DNA of 64,000 nucleotides from Indolivaga macrotermitis (GTDB lineage: Bacteria > Bacteroidota > Bacteroidia > Bacteroidales > Dysgonomonadaceae): NCBI RefSeq assembly GCF_900128985.1, contig NZ_FQUC01000004.1:124001-188000 (forward strand), in the 5' to 3' direction. Below are positions 5,252 through 33,622 of the stretch, piece after piece. Positions within the stretch are counted from its first letter, which is position 1; every line of letters begins with the position of its first letter. The notes beneath the pieces are model-generated. The model was not told where the DNA came from, did not search any database, and saw nothing but the letters and a program-made list of their open reading frames with translations. The translations under genes were made by a program, and so were the position numbers.

Positions 5252-6112
5252 ATGAAAAAAAAGATTCTTTTACTGATGGGTATATTCGCTTTCGGAATAA
5301 CCTTTGCTCAAATTGGTATTCATACGGAAAACCCATTAGGAGTATTCCATGTTGACGCCGGACGGGATAATTCGGCTACACCTACCACTACCCAATTATT
5401 AAACGATGTGGTTGCGAAAGTCAGCTCGACAGGCAGTATCAACCTCGGTATAGGCGGAGTACCCTCCGATAATACTCAACTTGACTTACTTGCTCCGAAT
5501 AAAGGACTGTTATTTAACAAAGTGGCTTTGACATCGCTTACCGATATCATAACTGTTCCCAATCCTGAGAAAGGTACGGTCATATACAATACGGCATATA
5601 ATAACAATATGAACGAGGGTTATTATTATTTTAATGGAAGCAGTTGGCATATAATGCGGTCGAGTAAGATGGGGACAACACGGCTCAATCTGCTTTCGAA
5701 TGGTGCTTCAACATCTGTTACAACGGCAACAGTTAGTGCCGGAGGATACGGTGGTACACGGCTATCCTTTACTTCAGGCGGCTCTATTACAATCAGCAAT
5801 ACAGGGAGATATGTGTTTATGGTCAACTTGTATGGCAGTTCTGCCGGAGGAGGAGTACCCGGCTTATACTATTTATTTCTTGTTAAAAAAGGAAGCCCTT
5901 CAACCCTATTAGATGGAATGACCATGACTCCGTTTTTAGAACCCACTTTTTCTCAACCGGGTTGTCTGGCCGGTACCTTCGAAGAGGGAGATGAAGCCGA
6001 AATATATCTGGCACATAACTCTGCTAATGCAGTACCATGGACCCTTATTGCAAATACCAGTATTCCGAGTGTGATAGCCGCAACTTCCATGTTCTACTGG
6101 AAATTATATTGA
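5252..6112 (+). CDS. Exported cassette protein, first gene of C1
   Basis: 286 residues. A signal peptide (about 1-19, ending TFA) is followed by the family motif GIHTENPLGVFHVD and a low-complexity, beta-rich stalk-like region to about residue 90. The segment NKVALTSLTDIITVP is shared with the next two genes. The C-terminal 140 or so residues look like one beta domain with alternating hydrophobic strands, ending MFYWKLY. The GIxTxxP motif is common in Bacteroidota surface and fibre-like proteins; the function here is unknown. The first 13 codons are nearly identical in DNA to the first gene of C3 and C4. It is followed 38 bp later by a paralogue. Confidence 0.8.
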   Translation: MKKKILLLMGIFAFGITFAQIGIHTENPLGVFHVDAGRDNSATPTTTQLLNDVVAKVSSTGSINLGIGGVPSDNTQLDLLAPNKGLLFNKVALTSLTDIITVPNPEKGTVIYNTAYNNNMNEGYYYFNGSSWHIMRSSKMGTTRLNLLSNGASTSVTTATVSAGGYGGTRLSFTSGGSITISNTGRYVFMVNLYGSSAGGGVPGLYYLFLVKKGSPSTLLDGMTMTPFLEPTFSQPGCLAGTFEEGDEAEIYLAHNSANAVPWTLIANTSIPSVIAATSMFYWKLY

Positions 6113-6150
6113 TCTTTCAATTTCCCTGAATAATAATTACTTATAACAAC

Positions 6151-7029
6151 ATGAAAAAAAATTTATTATATATATTTTGCCTCGCTCTATCGTCGATGGT
6201 ATATGCCCAGGTAGGGATCAGGAGCCTGAATCCTATCGGTGCATTCCATATAGACGGGTTAGGGAATACTCCTGCAAGCCCAATAACATCTGAGTTAACT
6301 GACGATATTATTATCCAAAATGACGGTGCAGGAGGTGTAGGAGTTGGAATCGGTAAGATACCAAGTACTAATGCACAACTCGATTTACAATCGAGCACCA
6401 AAGGATTCACTTTAAATAAAGTAGCACTCAGCAGCCCTACTGATATTACTACTGTGCCAACGCCCCGTTCAGGAATGTTAGTGTATAACACCAATACCAA
6501 TACCTCGGCATCCATATCGGAAGGGGTCTTTTTTCATAATAATAGCCAATGGTTAAGGGTAGATACTAACACTTCCCTACCCGAACTAACGTTATCAACA
6601 TTGCTGAATAATACCCCTACTACTACAATTTCTTCAACAAGTACACACGTTGGCACAGCATTACTCAAATTTAAGTCCGCTGACGGTGCAATCAAAGTTC
6701 CGTCTACATCTGCTTATGCTTTTTGTATTCGCCTATATGGTAGTGTACCGGCTTTTACTATTCCAGTTGGAAGGGACAACCCTGTATACCACTACTATAT
6801 ATACCTTGTTAAAAAAAGCGATCTGACAATTCTGGATAGTGCCGAATTAGATTTGAGTGTATTTAGTACAAAAGAAATGGCTTATATGGTAACCCTTGGA
6901 GCTTCGTTGCAAGCGAACGACGAAGTTTATATTTATCTGGGCAACGCTAAGGATCATCCAGTGTGGACTTTATATGGAGGAAGTACCACTTCTGCCAACT
7001 TAACAAGCTTAATATATTGGAAAATATAA
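6151..7029 (+). CDS. Exported cassette protein, second gene of C1
   Basis: 292 residues. The signal peptide (about 1-19, ending VYA) precedes VGIRSLNPIGAFHIDG. A region with GVGIGKIPSTNAQLDLQSS recalls the VGIGTxxPxxxLDI motif found in trimeric fibre and adhesin proteins. NKVALSSPTDITTVP is shared within the cassette. The C-terminal beta domain ends LIYWKI, much like its two neighbours. The start ATG lies in an A-rich context without a Shine-Dalgarno sequence. The gap to the next gene is 13 bp, so an operon is very likely. The function is not recognised. Confidence 0.8.
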   Translation: MKKNLLYIFCLALSSMVYAQVGIRSLNPIGAFHIDGLGNTPASPITSELTDDIIIQNDGAGGVGVGIGKIPSTNAQLDLQSSTKGFTLNKVALSSPTDITTVPTPRSGMLVYNTNTNTSASISEGVFFHNNSQWLRVDTNTSLPELTLSTLLNNTPTTTISSTSTHVGTALLKFKSADGAIKVPSTSAYAFCIRLYGSVPAFTIPVGRDNPVYHYYIYLVKKSDLTILDSAELDLSVFSTKEMAYMVTLGASLQANDEVYIYLGNAKDHPVWTLYGGSTTSANLTSLIYWKI

Positions 7030-7042
7030 ATAATCAAGAAAA

Positions 7043-7894
7043 ATGAAAAATCTATTGATATTATCCGTGCTTTTTTTCTTAGTGCTTAATTCTTATTCTC
7101 AGGTTGGAATTAATACAAGCAACCCGAGAGGGGTATTTCATATAGACGGAAACGGAGACAATGCCTCCACCCCGACCGTCGCGCAGTTAAAAAATGATCT
7201 GATAGCTCAGGTTGATGCTAATGGAGAGATGTATGTCAATATGGGTTCCGAAGGGCATACATCCAGCCAATTTGGGCTCTATGATACCAATAAAGCATTA
7301 GGGCTTAATCGAGTTGCGTTAACTTCAACAACAGATATAACAACTGTACCTTCTCCCGGAAAAGGACTTTTCGTCTACGATACTAATACCAATTATATGC
7401 ATTATTACTCGGGATATATGTGGTTACGTATAGAGGATACTCCTTATGAAAACACTTCAGTACGCACTAATAATTTATTAGAGCGTGCCTATAGTCTTCC
7501 TCATACTCCGACTGGGATAGCAGAAGGTACTCTATTGAAATTTACCTCAACAGGAACGATTACTATCGACGAAAAAGGCTCTTACGGTTTTTCCATTCGT
7601 TTATATGGAGGACCCGGAACATTTACACCAACACCTGCTAATAAAACATATTATGTGTACATGACTAAAGCGGGTTCGACAAGTATCCTTGATTGTATTC
7701 AGATAGATCTTTACGTATATACGGGACGCCCAATATCCTATACTGCTACATTTTATGCTGATTTGGAAGCGAATGATGAAGTATGTTTCTACTGGGCACA
7801 TGATCAAGCTACAACAACAACATGTTATCTTGTACATTCCACTGAAGGAGCCATTAACTCAAATAGGGCAAGTATGCTTTACTGGAAATTCTAA
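7043..7894 (+). CDS. Exported cassette protein, third gene of C1
   Basis: 283 residues. The signal peptide (about 1-19, ending SYS) is followed by QVGINTSNPRGVFHIDG. NRVALTSTTDITTVP and the last strand MLYWKF match the two genes before it, so the three proteins of this cassette resemble each other more than they resemble those of the other cassettes. It closes the cassette and is followed at once by a strong bidirectional hairpin. It may form a hetero-oligomer with the other two (inference). Confidence 0.8.
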   Translation: MKNLLILSVLFFLVLNSYSQVGINTSNPRGVFHIDGNGDNASTPTVAQLKNDLIAQVDANGEMYVNMGSEGHTSSQFGLYDTNKALGLNRVALTSTTDITTVPSPGKGLFVYDTNTNYMHYYSGYMWLRIEDTPYENTSVRTNNLLERAYSLPHTPTGIAEGTLLKFTSTGTITIDEKGSYGFSIRLYGGPGTFTPTPANKTYYVYMTKAGSTSILDCIQIDLYVYTGRPISYTATFYADLEANDEVCFYWAHDQATTTTCYLVHSTEGAINSNRASMLYWKF

Positions 7895-7896
7895 AA

Positions 7897-7936
7897 AAGA
7901 AAGACTGCTGATTTATTTGAATCAGCAGTCTTTCTT
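7897..7936. terminator. Bidirectional terminator between cassette C1 and cbpM
   Basis: A perfect 17-bp stem, 7897-7913 with 7920-7936 (AGAAAGACTGCTGATT side), and a 6-nt loop. It lies between convergent genes and has A-rich and T-rich flanks on both sides. Confidence 0.9.
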
Positions 7937-8245
7937 CTATTCTATATCTTCCCATAAGTCATCCTTATGTCCGAACAATTTTCGTAAGCTATATAGTTCC
8001 TTTTCCAAACCGTTTATGCGCTGCAATAAGTTATGTATAACATCTATACCCTCTATATTAATCGAGAGATCGTAATACATATTAGCAAACCTATCTAAAT
8101 CGGCTAATTGAGACTCATGTATATACATCGTCTCCTCAACAACCTTAATGTCGATAAGCCCTTCCCTTGCAAGTAAAGAGACGAAAGACGATTCGATACG
8201 CGAGTTCCTGCAATATTCTTCTATAATAATTAGTCCTGTTTCCAT
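7937..8245 (-). CDS. cbpM: Chaperone modulator CbpM-like protein
   Basis: 102 residues. A MerR-like winged-helix start (GLIIIEEYCRNSRIESSFVSLLAREGLI) is followed by a helical C-terminal half with a coiled-coil look (INGLEKELYSLRKLF). CbpM-type proteins bind and restrain the J-domain protein CbpA. The gene lies 7 bp downstream of a cbpA-like gene on the same strand, the usual arrangement. It acts in the cytoplasm. Confidence 0.8.
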   Translation of the reverse strand: METGLIIIEEYCRNSRIESSFVSLLAREGLIDIKVVEETMYIHESQLADLDRFANMYYDLSINIEGIDVIHNLLQRINGLEKELYSLRKLFGHKDDLWEDIE

Positions 8246-8252
8246 AGCCGTA

Positions 8253-9170
8253 TTATTTAGATTCTGCCAATTTTTTAAATAATGCTTTTTGTTCGTCAGT
8301 CAACCCTATCGGCACTTGCACCGAATAGGTTACATACAGGTCCCCGAAGCGACCATCTTGTTTATATACAGGGAAACCTTTGCCTTTGAGGCGGACTTTG
8401 GTGCCATTCTGGGTTTCGGGTTTTACTTTCAGTTTTACTTTTCCCGATAATGTGTCAATCATTGTATTTCCTCCCAAAACCGCTGTATATAAATCCAGAG
8501 GAGCATTCAGATATAAATCATCCCCTACCCTGTTAAATACAGAATCATTTTCTATTACAAATGTAATATACAAATCTCCATCGGGTCCTCCATTGGCTCC
8601 CGGTCCTCCTTGCTTGGGAAGCTTAATTACTTGCCCGTCTGCTATTCCGGCAGGTACAGTTATACGGATAGTTTTCCCGTTAACGGTTAAAGTTTGTTTG
8701 TGCGTTTGCGCTGCATCCCGTAATGTCAAATGTAACTCGGCGCCGAAATCCTGACCTTTGAATCCCCGGCTACGCCCTCCGGTTCTCTGTCCTCCCCGAC
8801 TTCCGAACAATGACTCAAAAAAATCGGAGAATTCGCCATCATCACCTCCGGAGAAGCTATACGAATACCCTCCGCCACCATCGCCAAATCCGGCAAAGCC
8901 TCCATGCTGCGATTGTTGCTGACGGGCTTTCTCGTATTCTTCGGCATGCTTCCAGTTTTCTCCGTACTCGTCGTATTTTTTTCTTTTTTCGGGATCACTA
9001 AGAACCTCATTTGCTTCATTTATCTGTTGAAACTTCTGATGAGCTTCTTCGTTGTTGGGATTTACATCCGGATGATATTTCCGGGCTAGTTTTCTGTAAG
9101 CCTTCTTTATATCATCAGCAGTAGCTGTTTTTGTCAGCCCAAGCACACTATAATAATCAATAAAAGCCAT
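8253..9170 (-). CDS. cbpA: J-domain co-chaperone CbpA-like (DnaJ class, no zinc finger)
   Basis: 305 residues. The N-terminal J domain (about 5-70) has the HPD motif at 33-35, which stimulates DnaK ATPase activity. A glycine-rich linker (about 88-135) is followed by the two-part DnaJ C-terminal substrate-binding domain. The four CxxCxGxG zinc motifs of true DnaJ are absent, so this is the CbpA type. The start [11 protein letters not shown] fits the family. It is probably translated with the cbpM-like gene 7 bp downstream. Confidence 0.9.
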
Positions 9171-9244
9171 ATGTTTATGTTTTTCTATTTAACGTTTTTA
9201 TAACCTGTTTGTTTAGGCATTTCAGCCATAAAGTCGAGAACAAG

Positions 9245-11614
9245 CTATTTTACTATAAAGCGGATCGATACCGAATTTCCGGCTTCATCCACCACCGTCA
9301 ACCTATGATTGCCTTTGAGTGGAGATAATTCTTTCTTATGAAAATTTTGTGTTTCTCCGATATAATCTTCATCCAAATGCCAGAACACTTTAGATTGCGG
9401 GTTACGATGTGCCAATTCAAATATTATCCGCCCTTGGGTTCCGTCCAACTGTTTGGGAATACTTACTACGGCATTATTCACCGGATAAATAAACTCCATT
9501 ACTTTTGTATTATCGTCTGCCTGACATTCGGGTGAAAATGGCGGCAATGAACGGTAAGAAGGATGATGCTCTTTATAAAACCACTCCCACGATGCAGGCA
9601 ACACAAACCACGATGTTTGTACTATCCCTCTGCCTCCGGCACAATCCTCGTAAACCCTATACTTAAAATCTTCCGATACATTTACCTTTATGTGGTATGA
9701 ACAAACCGGAGCTTCCAATGCTTTCTTCGTTACCCACAATGTGTCTTTCGAAGATTCAGGGCAATTAACTCCTGTCAAAAATCCACTTTCCCTGCAAACT
9801 TCCGTTTTAACCAAATCGCGAATAGGAGCAGTAAACCATTTAGAGGACGGTAGTGCGTTGAAAATATCGAACATTACCATTCCGGCAGTACGAGCTCCTG
9901 TCAATCCGGGGCGACCTTCCCCATCCGAATTACCAACCCATACTCCTACCGTATACTTAGGATTGACACCTACAGCCCATCCATCACGAAACCCGAAACT
10001 GGTTCCGGTTTTCCATGCGATCTTCTGGATTGAAGGGATAGAACGCCAGTCTATCTCTTCCGGACGATTCAGATTTGTAAGCGCATCCAGAGTCAACCAG
10101 ATAGCTCCAGCTTTGAATAAAGGGTCGGTAATATGTTCTTCAGTTTTGTCATTGTCTTCGTCATATATATATGAAACCGGCTTGCGTTTCCAATAACTTT
10201 GTTCTCTGTTATAATCGTTCAAAGATTGTGCCATATGCGCATACATCTGGCTTATATCCCAAAGTTTACCTTCTGCCCCTCCCAATATAAGCGAAAGCCC
10301 GTAATTATCGGGCGAACGTGACAGTGTTGTCATCCCTGCATCTCTCAACAGGTTGTAAAATTTAGTAACCCCATATTTACGGAGAGATGTCACAAAAGGA
10401 ATATTAAGTGAACGGGCTAAAGCCTCGGATGCCGGAACAGCTCCATCGTAATTCAAACTGAAATTTTTAGGTGTAAATCCGTTTATATTAATAGGAATAT
10501 CTGCTAATAACTGATTGGGAAGTAACTGTCCGTTATCCATCATTGCACAATAAAGGAACGGTTTGAGGATACTCCCTGTACTTCGGGGCGATTGTAAGAT
10601 ATCAACCTGATTGGCCGATATTGATTTATCGAAATGCACATTGCCACAATAAGCAATCACCTCATTCTTTTCTACATCTATAACAATGGCTGCTATATTT
10701 TTAATTTCGTTTTGTGCAAACTCGGCATTCCATCTCGATAAAATATTCTCAATGAGTAATTGCCGCTGCTTATCTATTGTGGTACGTATTTGCTTTCCTC
10801 CTTGTTCTTTATAGATTTTGGTAACCAAGTGAGGCGCTATCTGTGGTAAGGCGTAAGGTTCGAAGGGAAGTGGTTCTGCCAGAGCCAACTCATAATCGGT
10901 TTTATCCAGTATTTCCCTTTCGTATAATTTTTTCAGGAGGTTGTTACGCTTACTCAATAGCTTCGACCTGTTCCGTCCGAAGTGCATCATAGCCGGCGAA
11001 TTGGGTAAAACAGCCAATGTTGCAGCCTCAGCCCACGACAAAGTTGAAGACTGATGCCCGAAATATCTCCATGATGCAGCTTCTATACCTACTACATTAC
11101 CTCCCATTGGTGCATGTGAAGCATATAGGTTGATAATCTCATCTTTCGAATACGAAAATTCGAGGCGGGTGGCCATAATCATCTCAAGGAATTTTTCTCC
11201 GAACGTTCGGTTTTCTTTCCTTGCCAGACGGATCGTTTGCATAGTAATAGTACTGGCTCCACTAACAATTCTTTTCTCCGAAAAATTCTGTTTAACCGCC
11301 CTAAGTATAGATCCTGGATTAATTCCCCAATGATACCTGAAATACTGGTCTTCGAACTCAATCAGGCATGTTTTATATTTTTCCGGAACTGAATCTACTG
11401 TCGGAAAACGCCACTGCTGATCGTCGGCAATACGTGCTCCGAGTAGCTCCTCGTGCCGATCGGATACCACAGTGCTATATGGCACATCGAACAAAGGTGA
11501 AGGCAAGCAAAAGATATACCAGATACTAAGTATCAGCATAACAGGGATACTAATCCGGTATTTCAGTTTAGCTGTCCTGTATCGGTCTATCCATTTTAAG
11601 AAAAATCGCTTCAT
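9245..11614 (-). CDS. pbpC: Penicillin-binding protein 1C
   Basis: 789 residues from ATG at 11614. One membrane segment (ISIPVMLILSIWYIFCL) lies near the N-terminus. The glycosyltransferase domain has EDQYFRYHWGINPGSI and GASTITMQ. The transpeptidase domain has the serine motif STGSILK and the KTG motif (AWKTGTSFGF), and a C-terminal PBP1C-type domain follows. It polymerises and may crosslink peptidoglycan at the inner membrane. A longer frame starts at 11704, but it would overlap the upstream gene and run through a terminator hairpin (11636-11659), so I prefer the inner start. The alpha-2-macroglobulin gene that often neighbours pbpC is not here. Confidence 0.92.
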   Translation of the reverse strand: MKRFFLKWIDRYRTAKLKYRISIPVMLILSIWYIFCLPSPLFDVPYSTVVSDRHEELLGARIADDQQWRFPTVDSVPEKYKTCLIEFEDQYFRYHWGINPGSILRAVKQNFSEKRIVSGASTITMQTIRLARKENRTFGEKFLEMIMATRLEFSYSKDEIINLYASHAPMGGNVVGIEAASWRYFGHQSSTLSWAEAATLAVLPNSPAMMHFGRNRSKLLSKRNNLLKKLYEREILDKTDYELALAEPLPFEPYALPQIAPHLVTKIYKEQGGKQIRTTIDKQRQLLIENILSRWNAEFAQNEIKNIAAIVIDVEKNEVIAYCGNVHFDKSISANQVDILQSPRSTGSILKPFLYCAMMDNGQLLPNQLLADIPININGFTPKNFSLNYDGAVPASEALARSLNIPFVTSLRKYGVTKFYNLLRDAGMTTLSRSPDNYGLSLILGGAEGKLWDISQMYAHMAQSLNDYNREQSYWKRKPVSYIYDEDNDKTEEHITDPLFKAGAIWLTLDALTNLNRPEEIDWRSIPSIQKIAWKTGTSFGFRDGWAVGVNPKYTVGVWVGNSDGEGRPGLTGARTAGMVMFDIFNALPSSKWFTAPIRDLVKTEVCRESGFLTGVNCPESSKDTLWVTKKALEAPVCSYHIKVNVSEDFKYRVYEDCAGGRGIVQTSWFVLPASWEWFYKEHHPSYRSLPPFSPECQADDNTKVMEFIYPVNNAVVSIPKQLDGTQGRIIFELAHRNPQSKVFWHLDEDYIGETQNFHKKELSPLKGNHRLTVVDEAGNSVSIRFIVK

Positions 11615-11635
11615 CCGATATATCGTAAAGTAAAA

Positions 11636-11659
11636 ACGAAGCCTAAAAATCAGCTTCGT
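11636..11659 (-). terminator. Hairpin between the carbonic anhydrase gene and pbpC
   Basis: On the minus strand ACGAAGC pairs with GCTTCGT and a TTTTTA tail follows. It lies 27 bp after the stop of the upstream gene and helps to fix the pbpC start at 11614. Confidence 0.7.
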
Positions 11660-11685
11660 CTTTAAAATATCTATTGTATTTTTTC

Positions 11686-12204
11686 TTACTCCTCTTTGAA
11701 CCATCCCGAATACATCAGGTAATTCTTGGCTATTTTCTGATTCATTTCTTTTGCCTGTTCGGGATCTACTTTCTTCACAAATTTAGCTGGTACTCCCGCA
11801 TAAATACTTCCCGGCTCTACTATAGTACCACTTAGAATTACCGATCCGGCAGCAACAATAGAGCCTTCGCCTATAACGGCATGATCTAGAACAATCGCTC
11901 CCATACCGATCAAAGCTCCACTTTCGATTTTCGCTCCGTGTATTACCACATTGTGACCGATGGAAACATCATCGCCTATTTCGACTGTCGACTTTTGATA
12001 TAAAGTATGCAAAACGCTTCCGTCCTGAATATTAACCCGATTGCCTATGCGGATCGAATTAACATCACCACGCAGTACGGCGTTAAACCATACACTGCAA
12101 TCGTCTCCCATAATAACATCGCCTATAATAGTAGCGTTATCTGCAAGAAATGCATTTTTTCCTATTTGTGGTGTAAAGCCTCTAACTTCTTTTATTAAAG
12201 CCAT
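11686..12204 (-). CDS. Gamma carbonic anhydrase family protein
   Basis: 172 residues forming a left-handed beta-helix of hexapeptide repeats (IGDVIMGDDCSVWFNAVLRGD, then IGDDVSIGHNVVIHG and IGMGAIVLDHAVIGEGSIVAAG). The histidines that bind metal in this family are present (SVLHT, IGHNVVIHG). The family forms trimers and includes carbonic anhydrases and YrdA/PaaY-type proteins; whether this one hydrates CO2 cannot be told. A C-terminal helix ends in YLMYSGWFKEE. It lies 35 bp after the aminopeptidase P gene on the same strand. Confidence 0.88.
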   Translation of the reverse strand: MALIKEVRGFTPQIGKNAFLADNATIIGDVIMGDDCSVWFNAVLRGDVNSIRIGNRVNIQDGSVLHTLYQKSTVEIGDDVSIGHNVVIHGAKIESGALIGMGAIVLDHAVIGEGSIVAAGSVILSGTIVEPGSIYAGVPAKFVKKVDPEQAKEMNQKIAKNYLMYSGWFKEE

Positions 12205-12239
12205 CTTGTTTTTATATGATATCTAAAATATGAGTATTC

Positions 12240-14024
12240 TTAAATCGCTTTTGTCTTTTCTTTCAACCAAGCCTTTTCCTCTTCTGTAAGGCTAGGCGAA
12301 AGACGGTCAAATACAAATTGATGATAGTTATTAAACCAACTTATTTCTTTGTTTGTCAACATTTCCTTTATAATAGGGGCTGTATCTATCGGACAAAGGG
12401 TCAGTGTTTCGAAAGAATAAAACGCACCAAATTCTGTCACGCATTCTTCTTTTGCCAGTATAAGGTTTTCGATACGGATTCCGTATTGATTTGCCCTATA
12501 TAATCCCGGCTCGTTAGATGTAACCATACCTGGTTGTAATGTTGTCGGATTTTCATTCATCCGTATATTTTGGGGTCCTTCGTGCACATTCAGAAAATGT
12601 CCGATACCATGTCCTGTTCCATGCAGATAATTCAAACCATTATCCCACAATGTTTTTCGGGCTAAGATATCTAACTGGCTACCACGTGTTCCCTGAGGAA
12701 AAATAGCCGTAGCCAAATTAATGTGCCCTTTCAGTACCATTGTGTAGTCTTTCTTCATCTGTTCGCTAATAGTGCCTACAGCTACAGTACGGGTAATATC
12801 AGTAGTTCCGTCAAAAAACTGAGCTCCCGAATCAATAAGTAATAAACCTTCCGGTTTTACTTTTAACGAACTTTCGGGTGTTACGTGATAATGCACTATA
12901 GCTCCGTTAGGCATATAACCTGCAATAGTATCAAAACTTTCACCAACAAACAAGTCTTGCTGGCTCCGGTATTCTACAAGTTTTTCGACAATAGTAAGCT
13001 CTTCTACTTCGCCTGCGGGGACAGCTTTCTCAAGCCACATGAAAAATTTCACTAATGCTACTCCATCACGTTCCATAGCATTACGGAAGCCTTGTTTTTC
13101 GGTCTCATTCTTAACGCTCTTCATCAAATCGACAGGAGACGGAATGTCTATAATACGACATGATTTGGGTATTCTATTATAGAGGCTGAAAGATATTTTA
13201 GTACTCTGTAAACAGATTTTCGAATCTTCTGTTATATTCGACACATAATCCTCAACCTTGGTATAGTCTGCAATAGCAACTCCCTCTTGTTGAAAATGTT
13301 GTACGGTTTCCTGAGTTAATTTCTTCGGATCAATAAAAATTACAGCTTCGTTATTCGAAACATATGCATGGCATACTGCAACAGGATTACAATGCACATC
13401 GTTTCCGCGTATGTTGTAAAGCCATGCAATAGTATCCAGTGATGATATAAGAATAGAGTCAGCCCCCTCTTTTTTTAAGAACTGACGGACTTCTTTTATT
13501 TTATCCGAAGCCGAAACTCCGCTGTATTTTGTAGGTAGTTCGAATATTGTGTTTGTCGGTATTTGCGGCCTATCCTTCCAGATCTGTGTAAATGGATCAT
13601 AATCGGCAATCAGATGAAGTCCTTTGCTATTCAATCGTGCAGTCAACTGATAAGCATCATGTGCAGCATATACATTGCCATCGATACCAACATTATTCCC
13701 TTCTGATAATTCGCTTAACAGCCATTCTTCAATTGTTGGAGTTGTGGGTAAACCTTCTCTAAAAAGATCTATACCCGAATTGTTTAGCTGTTGTGCTGCC
13801 TGAAGAAAGTATCGCGAGTCTGTCCAAAGTCCGGCTTTATCTCTTGTTACTACTATCGTTCCGGCAGAACCTGTAAATCCGCTTATCCATTCGCGCGAAG
13901 CCCAATGAGATGCAGGATATTCACTCAAATGCGGGTCGGTACTCGGAATAATAAATGCATGTAAATCTTTCTCCTCTAAAAATTGTCTCAACGAGGACAA
14001 TCGACGATGTATAACGTTTGCCAT
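12240..14024 (-). CDS. pepP: Xaa-Pro aminopeptidase (M24B, aminopeptidase P)
   Basis: 594 residues. Two creatinase-like N-terminal domains precede the M24 catalytic domain. Metal ligands are visible: D and D in LLIDSGAQFFDGTTDIT, H in HGTGHGIGHFLNVHEG, E in NEPGLY and E in IENL. It removes N-terminal residues that precede proline, probably in the cytoplasm, since no signal peptide is seen. The start MANVIHRRL at 14024 is chosen over an upstream in-frame ATG at 14063, because that extension lies inside repeat copy E. Confidence 0.93.
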   Translation of the reverse strand: MANVIHRRLSSLRQFLEEKDLHAFIIPSTDPHLSEYPASHWASREWISGFTGSAGTIVVTRDKAGLWTDSRYFLQAAQQLNNSGIDLFREGLPTTPTIEEWLLSELSEGNNVGIDGNVYAAHDAYQLTARLNSKGLHLIADYDPFTQIWKDRPQIPTNTIFELPTKYSGVSASDKIKEVRQFLKKEGADSILISSLDTIAWLYNIRGNDVHCNPVAVCHAYVSNNEAVIFIDPKKLTQETVQHFQQEGVAIADYTKVEDYVSNITEDSKICLQSTKISFSLYNRIPKSCRIIDIPSPVDLMKSVKNETEKQGFRNAMERDGVALVKFFMWLEKAVPAGEVEELTIVEKLVEYRSQQDLFVGESFDTIAGYMPNGAIVHYHVTPESSLKVKPEGLLLIDSGAQFFDGTTDITRTVAVGTISEQMKKDYTMVLKGHINLATAIFPQGTRGSQLDILARKTLWDNGLNYLHGTGHGIGHFLNVHEGPQNIRMNENPTTLQPGMVTSNEPGLYRANQYGIRIENLILAKEECVTEFGAFYSFETLTLCPIDTAPIIKEMLTNKEISWFNNYHQFVFDRLSPSLTEEEKAWLKEKTKAI

Positions 14025-14035
14025 AACAGAAATTT

Positions 14036-14127
14036 TAAATAACAGCAAGTATGGATAACTCATTACAAAAACACTTCCGCTTTGTAAACACTACTTGCCT
14101 ATACAATAAAAAGGCCTGCGACCTTTA
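14036..14127 (-). repeat. Dispersed structured repeat, copy E
   Basis: 92 nt on the minus strand. It begins with TAAAGGTCGCAGGCCTTTTTA, where TAA is the stop codon of the bactofilin gene, and ends ATACTTGCTGTTATTTA, 11 nt before the pepP start. The inner stem pairs GCAAGTA with TACTTGC. It is one of five copies, 91-97 nt long, in this window. Confidence 0.7.
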
Positions 14128-28579: not shown

Positions 28580-28613
28580 AAAACCGGACACTTAAAAAAG
28601 GCGTCCGGTTTTT
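28580..28613 (-). terminator. Terminator after the carboxyltransferase gene
   Basis: AAAACCGGAC pairs with GTCCGGTTTT. It lies 23 bp beyond the stop codon on the minus strand and has a T-rich tail. Confidence 0.85.
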
Positions 28614-28635: not shown

Positions 28636-30417
28636 TTAGTCTATAAATGCTAATATCTGGTTCTTTTGAACTTTATCACCTTGTTTGGTTTCAATCTGAA
28701 CAATCTTACCCGATTTTAAAGCTTTCACTTCTTCAATACCATAATAAGCCTGAATGAAACAGATAATATCTCCTTCCTTAACCGGAGTTCCTACAACCGG
28801 AGCTGTAGATGCATCTGCCAAATCGATCTGCCAGATAACCTGACCCGAAACCGGAGTCTGAACAGGTTGAGCATTCGGATATTTCTCTGTTACCTTCTCT
28901 ACATCGAAGTTAGGAACTTCAACTACAGGACGCACAGAGATAATAGGTGCATTGGCTTTCTCTTTCTCTTTCTCTAATTCGGCATTGAAACGTTCTTTTG
29001 CCAAGCCCGACTTATAGTCGCGATACTGACGGTCATGCATAGCTAATTCGAACAATTCTTCATCGTCTTGTCCGTATTCCCATCCATTTTCATCCATTTC
29101 CTTACGGAATGAATCAAGAGCGTCAGGATACTCATCTTGTGGGTTACCTGTATAGAACTCCAAATTTTTAGATTTTGCCAGTTCCATAATCTCATCATCC
29201 AGTTTGCCCGGAAGCTGACCGGCTTTTCCTAAGATCATGTTCCAGCTATCTTTGTCGATATTAGAGAAGCGAGGTTGTCCCTGAGCCATTGAGAAGATAT
29301 TCATCAAAGCAATATTCTTAGTGTATTGGCTGAATGGAGTTACTAATGGAGGATAACCGAGTTTAGGCCAAATATATGCAACTTCATCAAACAACTGGAT
29401 AACCAGGTCATTTAACGAAACTTCTGCTTTACCATTGTTACGAAGAGCCATATTGATAGCCGAGTGCATTCCTCGCAAGTCTGCCATCATAGATCCCATC
29501 ATACCTCCGGGTAGACCACAACCGATAAGCAAAGAATTCATCAACTTGTTTGAAGGGTCAATGAAGTATCCCAAAAAGTCGTCCATAAATTCTTGTGTCA
29601 GAGCACGGGCTTCCATATAAGCTTTCATATTCACTTCTGGCACAGAAAAACCTGCATCCTTCAGCATGGCTTGCAATGTAATGATATCCGGATGGATCAT
29701 ACCCCAAGATAGAGGCTCAATAGCTGCATCGAGATAATCAGCTCCGGCACGGGCAACTTCCAACATAGAAGCCACTGAGAAACCGGGACCTGTATGTCCG
29801 TGATATTCGATAGGTATATTAGGGTGTCTGTCTTTAAGAGCTTTGGTCAGTTTGCCTAAGAAAGCAGGACGTCCAACACCTGCCATATCTTTCAAACAAA
29901 ATTCATCTGCTCCAAAATCTACCAGCTTATCAGCAAAATTCACATAATAATCTACCGTATGTATAGGAGAGTGAGTTATACAAAGAGCCGTTTGGGAAAT
30001 CATCCCGGCTTCTTTTGCATATTTCACTGAAAGCTCTAAGTTACGGGCATCGTTCAATCCGTCGAACGAGCGAGAAATGTTAGTTCCTTGTGCACACTTT
30101 ACCTTAAACATCAACTGGCGTACATCTTTCGGTACGGGATTCATACGCAAACCGTTTAATCCACGCTCAAGCATGTGTGTCTGGATACCTACTTCGTTGA
30201 AAGGAGCAGTCCATTCACGTACGGCCTTATTCGGGTTTTCGCCGTACATAAGATTTACTTGTTCAAAAGCACCCCCATTGGTTTCAACACGCGCAAAACA
30301 GCCCATATCAATAATCACCGGAGCAATACGGGTCAATTGGTCAACACGTGGTTGATATTTACCTGACGATTGCCACATATCACGATAAACGAGACTGAAT
30401 TTGATTTCTCTTCCCAT
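28636..30417 (-). CDS. OadA/PycB-like carboxyltransferase with a biotinyl-type domain lacking the biotin lysine
   Basis: 593 residues. The N-terminal HMGL-like TIM barrel has YRDMWQSS, CLKDMAGV (the lysine that is carbamylated in the family) and EYHGHTGPG (metal ligands), then the conserved post-barrel domain with LPGGMMGSM. The last 80 residues have the biotinyl/lipoyl fold. Where the family has EAMKM, this protein has QAYYG: aligned by the following spacing (A-L-K-S-G-K), the biotin lysine is a tyrosine. Biotin cannot be attached there, so its role as oxaloacetate decarboxylase or pyruvate carboxylase subunit is open. No partner subunits lie nearby. Confidence 0.85.
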   Translation of the reverse strand: MGREIKFSLVYRDMWQSSGKYQPRVDQLTRIAPVIIDMGCFARVETNGGAFEQVNLMYGENPNKAVREWTAPFNEVGIQTHMLERGLNGLRMNPVPKDVRQLMFKVKCAQGTNISRSFDGLNDARNLELSVKYAKEAGMISQTALCITHSPIHTVDYYVNFADKLVDFGADEFCLKDMAGVGRPAFLGKLTKALKDRHPNIPIEYHGHTGPGFSVASMLEVARAGADYLDAAIEPLSWGMIHPDIITLQAMLKDAGFSVPEVNMKAYMEARALTQEFMDDFLGYFIDPSNKLMNSLLIGCGLPGGMMGSMMADLRGMHSAINMALRNNGKAEVSLNDLVIQLFDEVAYIWPKLGYPPLVTPFSQYTKNIALMNIFSMAQGQPRFSNIDKDSWNMILGKAGQLPGKLDDEIMELAKSKNLEFYTGNPQDEYPDALDSFRKEMDENGWEYGQDDEELFELAMHDRQYRDYKSGLAKERFNAELEKEKEKANAPIISVRPVVEVPNFDVEKVTEKYPNAQPVQTPVSGQVIWQIDLADASTAPVVGTPVKEGDIICFIQAYYGIEEVKALKSGKIVQIETKQGDKVQKNQILAFID

Positions 30418-31079: not shown

Positions 31080-31916
31080 TTATATGTTATATATTGTGAC
31101 AATACAAGGCTTATCACTAGTAACTGCATAATTTCCATCGAGCTCATAAGCTACTGCAGTTCTAAATACAATATATAAATAATCGTTCGGGTGGCAGTAT
31201 CCCGCATACAGTGCTGTTGAAAATGCCATATAATCGCCAGTCACTCGAGTTATCGCCATATAATGCTCTATGACATCAACCTCTTCTGTTGTTCCGGTTG
31301 ATGCATTGTACCTATATAAGTATATGTATATACTTGCCTGGACCGGAAGCGGATATGTGGCAAACCCTGAACCTAAAGTTGTTAATCCCATCATATCAAG
31401 ATTCAGGAGGAAACGCCCCTCCGTTGGTATCACTATCTTATCACTTCCAGATAATGATAGGGATCCGTCTAACTTAGTCAATAGAACTGTTTCATACGTA
31501 GCATACGGAAACACAGTTGGTTGTACCTGAAACTGGGCATATTGCCCCAAAGATGGGTTAGCCTCCCACTGCACGGTTTGTCCGTCGTTTTCTAAAACGA
31601 GTATTGCAGGGCCTCCATACCCGGGGGTTAACTTTAAGCCATATTCATCTCCCGTTATATCCTTGCTGTGCTCTATATCCAGTTTTGCTTCCGGTGATAT
31701 AGTACCTACACCCAACCTTCCGTTACTATCGATAACTATATCATTCTGTTGCTGCGCCACCGTTATGGCAGAGTTTGAATTTTGTGGATTATCCTTTGCT
31801 CCGTCTATATGAAACAGCGTTCTTGGAAAATCAGTCTGTATTCCTATCTGAGACCGGATAAAAGTACTATATATAGAAGAGGCAATCACGGTTGCCCAAA
31901 AGAACATAATTCGCAT
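31080..31916 (-). CDS. Exported cassette protein, third gene of the reversed cassette Cm
   Basis: 278 residues. A hydrophobic N-terminus (about 1-23) is followed by IGIQTDFPRTLFHIDGA and GRLGVGTISPEAKLDIE. The C-terminal beta domain ends VTIYNI, like the first gene of this cassette. It lies 13 bp after the second gene. The function is unknown. The frame is intact even though the first gene is broken. Confidence 0.75.
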   Translation of the reverse strand: MRIMFFWATVIASSIYSTFIRSQIGIQTDFPRTLFHIDGAKDNPQNSNSAITVAQQQNDIVIDSNGRLGVGTISPEAKLDIEHSKDITGDEYGLKLTPGYGGPAILVLENDGQTVQWEANPSLGQYAQFQVQPTVFPYATYETVLLTKLDGSLSLSGSDKIVIPTEGRFLLNLDMMGLTTLGSGFATYPLPVQASIYIYLYRYNASTGTTEEVDVIEHYMAITRVTGDYMAFSTALYAGYCHPNDYLYIVFRTAVAYELDGNYAVTSDKPCIVTIYNI

Positions 31917-31929
31917 ATTAATAGAATCT

Positions 31930-32763
31930 TTATAATTGATAAAAAATAACAGAACTCATATTGAAGGCCTCGTGGCTATAAGAGCTGTAAGTGGTATTAT
32001 AATCGAGTAGCAAATACAAGGATGAAGAATCCGTATCTGCATTCCCTAAGAATGTAATACGGATATACAGGAAATCTCCTTTTAGTATATCCGTAGCAAT
32101 CAAAGACACATAAAGTGTCGTATAATCAAATATCTGCATAAATGGTTTGGCATCCACCGTTTGACAAATCACATCGGCTACTCCGGTTCTGCTTCTGACT
32201 AGTTCATAACGGACATCGACTTGTCGCGACCGCATGGTAGTGTTGTCTGTTTCCAACATTCCTGTCTTCATCAGCATTACATTGCTCCGGAACATAAAAG
32301 CGTATGAGCCGTCATTGGATATTGCTATTTGATTGCCAGTTGTATTTAAAGGAAACCTTACCGCTGTCCCGTTGGGAAAAGTATATGTTCCCTGAGCCAG
32401 ATTAATGATATAACCTCCGAGCCCTTTTGTGATACCCCACCATGCGTTACCATCTGCATCTCCCATGAGTATTTTGTTTTCGCCTTGTGTTCCGTCTGTC
32501 AAGCGGAAAGCCTCTCCCGGAGCGGTCGATTTCAGATGTAAGCGGGCTGTTGGTGCAAGGGTTCCGATTCCGACATTTCCCGTATTGTCGATCAGTATAT
32601 CATTCACCGATTGAGCAGCGGTAATTGTTCCGGATGCGGCATCGTCTCCTGTGGCATCGAGATGGAATATTCCCTGTGTATTCTGTGTATTAATCCCTAC
32701 CTGAGCCGGGATGTATAATATTGTAAAAAACAGGGAGCATGTGAGTAGTATATATCTTTTCAT
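31930..32763 (-). CDS. Exported cassette protein, second gene of Cm
   Basis: 277 residues. Signal peptide (about 1-20, ending YIPA), then QVGINTQNTQGIFHLDA and NVGIGTLAPTARLHLKS. LTDGTQGENKILMGDADGNAWW resembles the DGT...LxSDxxGxxTW module of cassettes C2 to C4. The C-terminal domain ends VIFYQL. It is 6 bp from the first gene and 13 bp from the third. Confidence 0.78.
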   Translation of the reverse strand: MKRYILLTCSLFFTILYIPAQVGINTQNTQGIFHLDATGDDAASGTITAAQSVNDILIDNTGNVGIGTLAPTARLHLKSTAPGEAFRLTDGTQGENKILMGDADGNAWWGITKGLGGYIINLAQGTYTFPNGTAVRFPLNTTGNQIAISNDGSYAFMFRSNVMLMKTGMLETDNTTMRSRQVDVRYELVRSRTGVADVICQTVDAKPFMQIFDYTTLYVSLIATDILKGDFLYIRITFLGNADTDSSSLYLLLDYNTTYSSYSHEAFNMSSVIFYQL

Positions 32764-32769
32764 ATCATT

Positions 32770-33622
32770 TCAAATATTATAAACCATTACACTCGGAAAA
32801 TAAATAACATTATCGAATTGGCCTGTAGGCGCGTCCAGTCCAAGCCCAAGTATCCAATCTGTAAATGGATTAACAAGGATACAATATAAATCGCCCTTCT
32901 TTAAATTGGAAGCAAACATGGATATAGTAAAAGAAAATCGGGGATTGCCAGCAGAAACACCTTGAATATTCGGAAATATCATAATATTTTCGATATTTTC
33001 AGGCTGGATAATACCACTTACTACTTTGCGAATTTTAAGGTTGGCCGGAATAACATTGTACTTCATATTGGCTCCTGATATAGCAGATGATTGAGCTGCT
33101 CCCCACCAGCGAAAAGTAAAGACATAACTGCCATCGTTATCGATCCGGATATATCCTGCATCCGGATTATCGACAATAGAACCGGTATCGGGTTTCAACT
33201 TATTGAAAAGCAGAGGGGTATCCGTATTGGCAGGAAAAAGAAATGACACTTGTGAAGGAGAAGTCATACGGTATACTTTCCCGTTCAACGATACACGCGG
33301 TATCCATGTGCCATCGCCATCAGCATCAGAAGCCAAAAACTTATCGCCTGTGCCTTCGCTGGTATCCTCGATACGGATAAAAGAATTTGCATTTCCTTTA
33401 TCAATATGTACCTGATCATCGGGGTCTAGAGTTCCTATACCCAGATAACCTTTATCATCTACATATACATCATCTGTATAGCCACTGGTTCCGGCAGTGG
33501 AGGTATCACCTAAGGGGGTCCACCTGAAATATACCCAAAGGATTTTGTGTATTTATTCCTACTTGCGCCGGGGATATACCGAAAGAAAATATACCCAAGA
33601 GTAATAATAGTTTCTGTTTCAT
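32770..33622 (-). pseudogene. First gene of Cm, broken by a one-base frameshift
   Basis: From ATG at 33622 the frame gives a normal cassette start (MKQKLLLLGIFSFG, then QVGINTQNPLGIFQVDPL) and meets a stop at once. Reading on in another frame gives GDTSTAGTSGYTDDVYVDD, GYLGIGTLDPDDQVHID and an intact C-terminal domain ending VMVYNI. The break is at a run of five G on the plus strand (33514-33518); removing one base restores a frame of 283 codons, the family length. It may be a true mutation, a slippage switch or a sequencing error. A shorter frame from 33336 is only the C-terminal part. Confidence 0.85.

Follow-up and report, generated by a model that had tools for sequence, protein, structure and literature searches.

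The window, the stretch of 64,000 nucleotides that was analysed, contains a carboxyltransferase gene (CT) whose product ends in a biotinyl-type domain without the biotin lysine, and genome comparison suggests that this protein probably functions as the 5S-like subunit, the one acting on pyruvate and oxaloacetate, of a split transcarboxylase (EC 2.1.3.1) that would be soluble and resemble the Propionibacterium enzyme, with MmdA as the 12S and MmdC as the 1.3S component. What is proposed is a likely 5S-type function and not descent from the 5S family; this wording was chosen because CT falls outside the curated 5S family, most of the genomes with the lysine-less form of the protein (form B below) encode OAD_beta, and the window's genome encodes a biotin carboxylase. 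The features of CT are collected in Table 1.

Table 1. Features of CT and of the short ORF between mmdA and mmdC (window coordinates unless a locus is named)
Feature	Coordinates	Strand	Evidence
CT, carboxyltransferase gene, 5S-like subunit with lysine-less biotinyl domain	28636..30417	-	593-aa ORF, ATG to stop
TIM-barrel carboxyltransferase and PYC_OADA conserved domain, residues 1-472	29002..30417	-	Pfam; 2nx9 Z 40.8, 1rqb Z 39.2
D13	30379..30381	-	identical in 102/102 aligned rows
K176 of LKDM	29890..29892	-	identical in 102/102 aligned rows; pairwise alignment
H206 and H208 of HGH	29794..29802	-	both His in 43/43 form-B rows
T360 of PPLVTP	29338..29340	-	identical in 102/102 aligned rows
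Linker, residues 481-516	28870..28977	-	fastest-evolving part, pN/pS 0.274; pLDDT <50 at 492-502
Biotinyl-type domain, residues 517-593, biotin lysine missing	28639..28869	-	Pfam, alignment, pN/pS, structure prediction
QAYYG hairpin tip replacing EAMKM, residues 556-560	28738..28752	-	DNA read directly; alignment; model
Y559, in the biotin-lysine column	28741-28743	-	alignment
58-aa ORF between mmdA and mmdC, window's genome	L090 10203-10379	-	aligns with soluble delta-subunit tail, membrane part missing

Three Pfam domains are found in CT, all above the cut-off (HMGL-like, residues 126-233; PYC_OADA, 335-469; Biotin_lipoyl, 542-591, E 1.2e-6). The protein scores under the cut-off of every listed NCBIfam model, including those for OadA, pyruvate carboxylase B and transcarboxylase 5S, so that the curated models give it no name. 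The best-scoring of these models is that of pyruvate carboxylase subunit B; the curated 5S model (NF008984) gives 159.9 bits against the cut-off of 827, and the OadA model (TIGR01108) 230.9 bits against 756.5, so that CT belongs to neither family by these measures. Among solved proteins, sequence comparison puts PycB (5ks8), the 5S subunit of Propionibacterium and Vibrio OadA closest, and the AlphaFold2 model of CT (mean pLDDT 86) matches 2nx9 and 5ks8 (Z 40.8 each) as well as the 5S subunit, 1rqb (Z 39.2).

In OadA, PycB and their relatives, biotin is carried by the lysine of the AMKM motif. A preliminary description of this DNA held that CT has QAYYG in place of EAMKM, which is right, and the substitution is general: the lysine is missing in all of the best 80 of at least 595 confirmed matches and in CT itself (0 of 81 rows), the pattern [QE]xxYG is present in 80 of these 81 rows and EAFFG in one, and QTYYG accounts for 43 of the 81. 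These 80 homologues are the top matches to a form-B query, not chosen by motif, so that the set leans towards the query's own form; by their record titles, they come from Bacteroidota, bar one ‘uncultured bacterium', and the best matches are the ground for the name Dysgonomonas. A sequencing or frame error is excluded by the lack of the lysine in all 80. A substitute biotinylated lysine at the tip was also considered and rejected, there being none at the aligned site, and the sole nearly invariant lysine of the domain, K585, is located near the last strand, away from the tip. In the AlphaFold2 model, strands 551-557 and 560-565 are joined by a turn that contains Y558-Y559, and this is the biotin-bearing turn of true carriers.

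The domain is far from being a degenerate remnant. Folded alone, it is predicted to adopt the biotinyl fold (pLDDT 88.3), with E. coli AccB (1bdo) as the best match (Z 13.5 over 80 residues), in agreement with the earlier observation that the rest of the fold is intact. In 36 pairs of nine Dysgonomonas-type sequences, pN/pS is 0.161 for the biotinyl-type domain and 0.076 for the carboxyltransferase part, with synonymous sites near saturation, that is, the domain evolves about twice as fast as the carboxyltransferase half and is clearly constrained. Among the 37 rows of the close clade, W529 and G560 never vary, and Y559 and E562 hardly do. Decay of the domain is ruled out by the pN/pS values and by the conserved tip residues: this is a new conserved tip and not a wreck. 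The previous suggestion that the domain is kept as structure would fit both the predicted fold and the purifying selection.

Strong homologues of CT in 295 genomes of the order were sorted by the C-terminus into three forms. In the 34 form-C loci of the tree set, AMK[TV] or SMK[TV] is kept, and a homologue of OAD_beta adjoins the gene in all 34; form C, which is 53-58% identical to CT, is by motif and gene context the ordinary oxaloacetate decarboxylase OadA. Form A (21 loci) consists of open frames of about 720-780 aa with a longer C-terminus that ends in a true carrier domain with AMKMEN or SMKMEN. Form B, a lysine-less orphan gene, is represented in 43 genomes, including that of the window, and, given that the forms were assigned by the tail motif, the lack of the lysine in these 43 is a matter of definition. 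The homologues in G245 (L157) and G287 (L189) were classed as ‘truncated/other', and several frameshifted or cut sequences, namely, the strong matches in G069 and in G179, the fragments from G202 and the second G287 fragment, were left out.

The tree of the carboxyltransferase half, a quick one with SH-aLRT as the sole support measure, an outgroup that includes a long branch and L157, L184 and L189 left out, places form C at the base and joins A and B (SH-aLRT 100), with weak support for A against B (81-86); two changes are needed in all, and the topology fits a single loss of the lysine followed by the gain of a new carrier domain in form A.

The forms also differ in genomic context. OAD_beta is found beside none of the 122 form-B loci, 96 of which have at least 1 kb on both sides, and Mmd genes are found near CT in two of the 122, G090 and L011; the flanks of L091-L119 are about 1.5 kb or less. 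Across the order, there is no clean anti-correlation between form B and OAD_beta (C vs B, Fisher p 0.03): OAD_beta is found in 37 of the 43 form-B genomes, so that CT cannot be seen as a general substitute for the pump, and in these 37 genomes it would act alongside the pump or in some other way. Biotin carboxylase is missing in 27 of the 43 form-B genomes, of which 25 reach a completeness of 90% or more, compared with 84 of the 252 others (Fisher p 3e-4, without correction for relatedness). Here and below, OAD_beta or biotin carboxylase is called absent when a six-frame search gives no match at E 0.001.

The form-A loci resemble clusters for leucine degradation. An MccB-like carboxyltransferase is present in 16 of the 21, the label MccB resting on context or length with no family model passed, together with enoyl-CoA hydratase (19 of 21), acyl-CoA dehydrogenase (18 of 21) and, in several cases, HMG-CoA lyase; the five loci without the MccB-like gene include four short ones and L142, 17.5 kb long. 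The leucine-type loci are L131 (G216, 5976-14050), L106, L119, L123, L129, L130, L132, L134, L136, L137, L144, L146, L147, L149, L150 and L153. An AccC-like biotin carboxylase was not detected in any of the 21 form-A loci, and in four of the 21 the genome as a whole gives no biotin carboxylase match. In these clusters, the fusion of the carboxyltransferase with a carrier seems to take the place of biotin carboxylase, so that they are candidates for an ATP-free 3-methylcrotonyl-CoA transcarboxylase. Such a role in a leucine cluster was rejected for CT of the window because only the fused form A is seen there. The distant CT homologues in L193, L194 and L196 (28-29% identical, open frames of 504-526 aa) adjoin an MmdC-like carrier gene and are, by gene order, another split arrangement. 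The homologue in G245 (L157, 7927-9597) is 69% identical over residues 3-489 and has no biotinyl domain; the resemblance of its tail to a delta subunit is weak and not consistently above that of shuffled sequences.

The carboxyltransferase half of CT (Table 1) looks active, given that the aligned active-site residues are kept. D13 aligns with the metal-ligand aspartate of the 5S subunit and pyruvate carboxylase, K176 with the carboxylated active-site lysine, H206 and H208 with the metal-ligand histidines, and T360 with the proton-shuttle threonine of pyruvate carboxylase. H206 is identical in all 102 aligned rows and H208 in the 43 form-B rows, and all five residues, which make up the expected 5S active site, are kept in each of these 43. 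The RDxHQS motif of known relatives is changed to RDMWQS in CT and in nearly all rows; the tryptophan in place of histidine is also present in form C, the OAD_beta-linked form.

The genome of the window (4,659,322 bases, 99.99% complete) encodes four proteins with a Biotin_lipoyl domain above the cut-off, namely, a 442-aa frame that, judged by length, is taken for a lipoyl E2, a 177-aa BCCP, the 149-aa MmdC, and CT. The BCCP (LEAMKMQN) belongs to an acyl-CoA carboxylase operon on contig C24, together with a PccB-like subunit and the genome's one biotin carboxylase. A separate carrier was to be looked for, according to the preliminary description, and MmdC (LEAMKMEN) is the candidate: this protein is encoded beside the 519-aa MmdA on contig C18, which is not the contig of CT, with the epimerase in the same group. 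Both methylmalonyl-CoA mutase subunits and two CoA carboxyltransferases are found as well, so that the genome has both the 12S-type partner (MmdA) and the separate carrier (MmdC) that a 5S subunit needs.

The CT gene itself has no adjacent partner genes among the window neighbours that were read, as previously stated. The neighbours RecF, DUF721, thioesterase and flavodoxin were considered as partners and dropped; among the loci searched, the window and G133 are the only ones with RecF near CT, and in G224, G126 and G008, which belong to another family, RecF is found near mmdA. Between recF and the CT gene, an inverted repeat rich in GC (window 28580-28613) was spotted by eye; it is absent from the terminator-scan list. 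Elsewhere in the window (31080-33336) and in L089 (15029-18983) and L090 (7079-9652), there are paralogous secreted-looking proteins, many starting with ...AQxGINT..., with several copies in the genome.

The component that does not turn up is the pump. OAD_beta has no match in the window's 99.99% complete genome, although the control, Bacteroides ihuae, was matched, and none was found in any of the 11 Dysgonomonas-type genomes with CT that were examined (G000, G133, G019 and the eight behind L009-L012 and L014-L017, the latter with no completeness figure and with CT known from the homologue search rather than from a whole-genome search). Among the 16 genomes behind named loci, OAD_beta is found in five and in none of the eight Dysgonomonas-type ones. 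Conversely, G230, a member of the same family, has OAD_beta and no close CT homologue was found in it. The MmdA of the window's genome is 80-82% identical to that of seven OAD_beta-bearing genomes. MmdA loads biotin from methylmalonyl-CoA, and with the pump subunit not found, something else must unload it.

This argument is tightest in a few genomes that appear to be closed cases. G019 (99% complete; CT 88% identical to that of the window) has MmdA, MmdC and the mutase, no OAD_beta or biotin carboxylase match, and no PF00364 matches found other than MmdC and CT; provided that no gene escaped the searches, CT is there the only means of unloading MmdC, and MmdC the only means of loading CT. In G090 (98% complete), form-B CT, MmdA, a 66-aa ORF and MmdC are encoded in one row, again with no match to OAD_beta or biotin carboxylase in the genome; G090 also carries a form-A locus and further PF00364 matches. 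OAD_beta and biotin carboxylase likewise have no match in G008 and G277. The G277 contig ends just past mmdC, so that mmdB could sit in a gap, and G008 has MmdA and MmdC but no methylmalonyl-CoA mutase match. In G008 (L249) and G019 (L248), 99-100% complete, the lack of a biotin carboxylase match suggests that malonyl-CoA may have another source.

The gene between mmdA and mmdC points in the same direction. In the OAD_beta-bearing relatives, this position is occupied by an ORF some 300 aa long (five were read, at 294-335 aa, one of them cut), which in G224 contains a lamin-tail domain and an OAD_gamma region (Pfam), compared with a longest ORF of 58-72 aa in all six OAD_beta-lacking genomes examined. 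The alignment of these short ORFs to the tail of the G224 protein, at its C-terminus, outscores 500 of 500 shuffles; Pfam gives no match for the 58-aa ORF of the window's genome, so that the link to the delta tail consists in alignment scores compared with shuffles. The apparent loss of the membrane part of the delta subunit in genomes lacking OAD_beta agrees with the transcarboxylase reading without proving it. The same arrangement of mmdA, a short gene and mmdC is found in two genomes that encode OAD_beta elsewhere, G219 and G189, and, in the available text of PMC11575231, a 50-aa gene is described between mmdA and mmdC of X. ruminicola.

In the cycle that we infer, including the partnership of CT with MmdC, the direction of the reaction and the role of the remnant domain, MmdA would move the carboxyl group of methylmalonyl-CoA onto the biotin of MmdC, yielding propionyl-CoA, the carboxybiotin would swing into the active site of CT, and CT would pass the carboxyl to pyruvate to form oxaloacetate. 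Oxaloacetate would then return via malate, fumarate and succinate, closing a Wood-Werkman-type propionate cycle without the sodium-pumping OAD_beta, and the biotinyl domain of CT, itself unable to carry biotin, would be kept for another role, perhaps docking. The genomes thus support the earlier idea that the enzyme uses biotin on a separate carrier (MmdC encoded beside MmdA, the sole other PF00364 protein found in G019, the G090 row); its companion, that the reaction is different, appears to be partly right, inasmuch as carboxyl transfer between two substrates would replace ATP-driven carboxylation or pump-linked decarboxylation. Counted against the transcarboxylase reading are OAD_beta in 37 of the 43 form-B genomes, the biotin carboxylase and second carrier of the window's genome, the RDMWQS motif, the missing mutase of G008, the short gene between mmdA and mmdC in OAD_beta-bearing genomes, the propionate-negative strains described below and the low score with the 5S model.

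According to the available text of PMC12816885, propionate is made by several Dysgonomonas, being a major product (20.3 mM) in D. macrotermitis and listed also for D. alginatilytica, D. mossii, D. termitidis and D. capnocytophagoides. For D. oryzarvi, the products given are acetate and lactate alone, and in PYG no propionate was formed by two strains of this group from termites, of which one is a Dysgonomonas (PMC12816885). D. alginatilytica is the species of locus L009, with CT present and OAD_beta not found.

The chief rival, owing to the biotin carboxylase and the second carrier in the window's genome, is a split pyruvate carboxylase, in which AccC would use ATP to charge the BCCP of the acyl-CoA carboxylase operon and CT would turn pyruvate into oxaloacetate. 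The biotin carboxylase, the separate 177-aa BCCP and the PccB-like subunit on C24 make this scheme conceivable, as does the top NCBIfam model, pyruvate carboxylase subunit B, even if under its cut-off. It is nevertheless an unlikely solution, considering that 27 of the 43 form-B genomes, including G019 with its 88% identical CT, have no biotin carboxylase match, that MmdA and MmdC would be left without an outlet where OAD_beta is missing, and that the sole form-B row with carboxylase partners combines CT with MmdA and MmdC and not with a biotin carboxylase.

An enzyme that shares the pump with methylmalonyl-CoA decarboxylation seems quite improbable. CT would then be an OadA that borrows MmdC and MmdB, with oxaloacetate and methylmalonyl-CoA on one sodium pump, as the presence of OAD_beta in 37 of 43 form-B genomes would allow and as might be expected from the nearest lysine-bearing relative being OadA (form C), with the same architecture; this scheme is excluded in the 11 Dysgonomonas-type genomes if the OAD_beta searches missed nothing, and OAD_beta adjoins none of the 122 form-B loci. 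Still a little less probable is an enzyme that has dispensed with biotin, such as an aldolase, a lyase or a plain decarboxylase acting on oxaloacetate or pyruvate, with the biotinyl domain a fossil. The lack of a carrier gene adjoining CT, the place of its barrel in the HMGL-like superfamily and the tryptophan in place of the usual histidine of RDxHQS would all suit such an enzyme, but not the identity of the carboxylated-lysine, aspartate, first histidine and threonine positions in all 102 rows, the true carrier domain in the closely related form A, or the Y-G-x-E tip that is conserved rather than drifting.

If a split transcarboxylase is at work in Dysgonomonas and its relatives, these bacteria would differ in energy balance, in CO2 balance and in how they respond to the carbon source, and any pathway prediction in which MmdB is required would wrongly class them as unable to make propionate. 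CT is also a clear case of a swinging-arm domain in which the cofactor site is lost and selection retained, with MmdC as the probable biotin-bearing partner. More speculatively, and doubtful as a whole, an oxaloacetate-driven carboxyl-transfer module might have become widespread in Bacteroidales, taking the place of biotin carboxylases without the use of ATP, paired with MmdA for propionate, carrier-fused and combined with the MccB-like protein for 3-methylcrotonyl-CoA in the leucine clusters, and maybe serving as a source of malonyl-CoA, which in G019 and G008 would be made from oxaloacetate and acetyl-CoA for fatty acid synthesis.

In the open-licence PMC literature, as far as its available text goes, no report was found of a transcarboxylase in Dysgonomonas or other Bacteroidota, or of the lysine-less family. 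For Xylanibacter ruminicola, a relative from the rumen, the final carbon step that yields propionate is attributed to a sodium-pumping decarboxylase ‘rather than' a transcarboxylase (available text of PMC11575231), and a survey of gut genomes places the two-subunit 5S/12S transcarboxylase only in two actinobacterial genera (available text of PMC9403272).

Compared with the 5S subunit of the Propionibacterium transcarboxylase (1rqb/1rqh), CT has the same carboxyltransferase fold (Z 39.2, 453 residues, 25% identity), has no biotin of its own and would work together with a CoA carboxyltransferase of the 12S type and a small biotin protein encoded separately; unlike 5S, it keeps a C-terminal, lysine-less biotinyl domain, its gene is usually away from those of the partners, and its score is far below the cut-off of the curated 5S model (159.9 vs 827 bits). 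In the tree, which held no Propionibacterium 5S sequence, CT groups with the OadA-like forms of Bacteroidales. With OadA (form C; 2nx9), CT shares the combination of a carboxyltransferase domain and a C-terminal biotinyl domain, but form C keeps AMK and adjoins OAD_beta in 34 of 34 loci, and form B does neither; CT of the window has neither the biotin lysine nor an OAD_beta partner found in the genome. The whole-length architecture is that of PycB (5ks8, Z 40.8), which, however, bears its own biotin, whereas the corresponding lysine is gone from CT and biotin carboxylase is not found in 27 of the 43 form-B genomes. With the MmdABCD pump of other Bacteroidales, Dysgonomonas shares MmdA and MmdC; MmdB and the membrane part of the delta subunit were not found, and pyruvate would replace the pump as the carboxyl sink.
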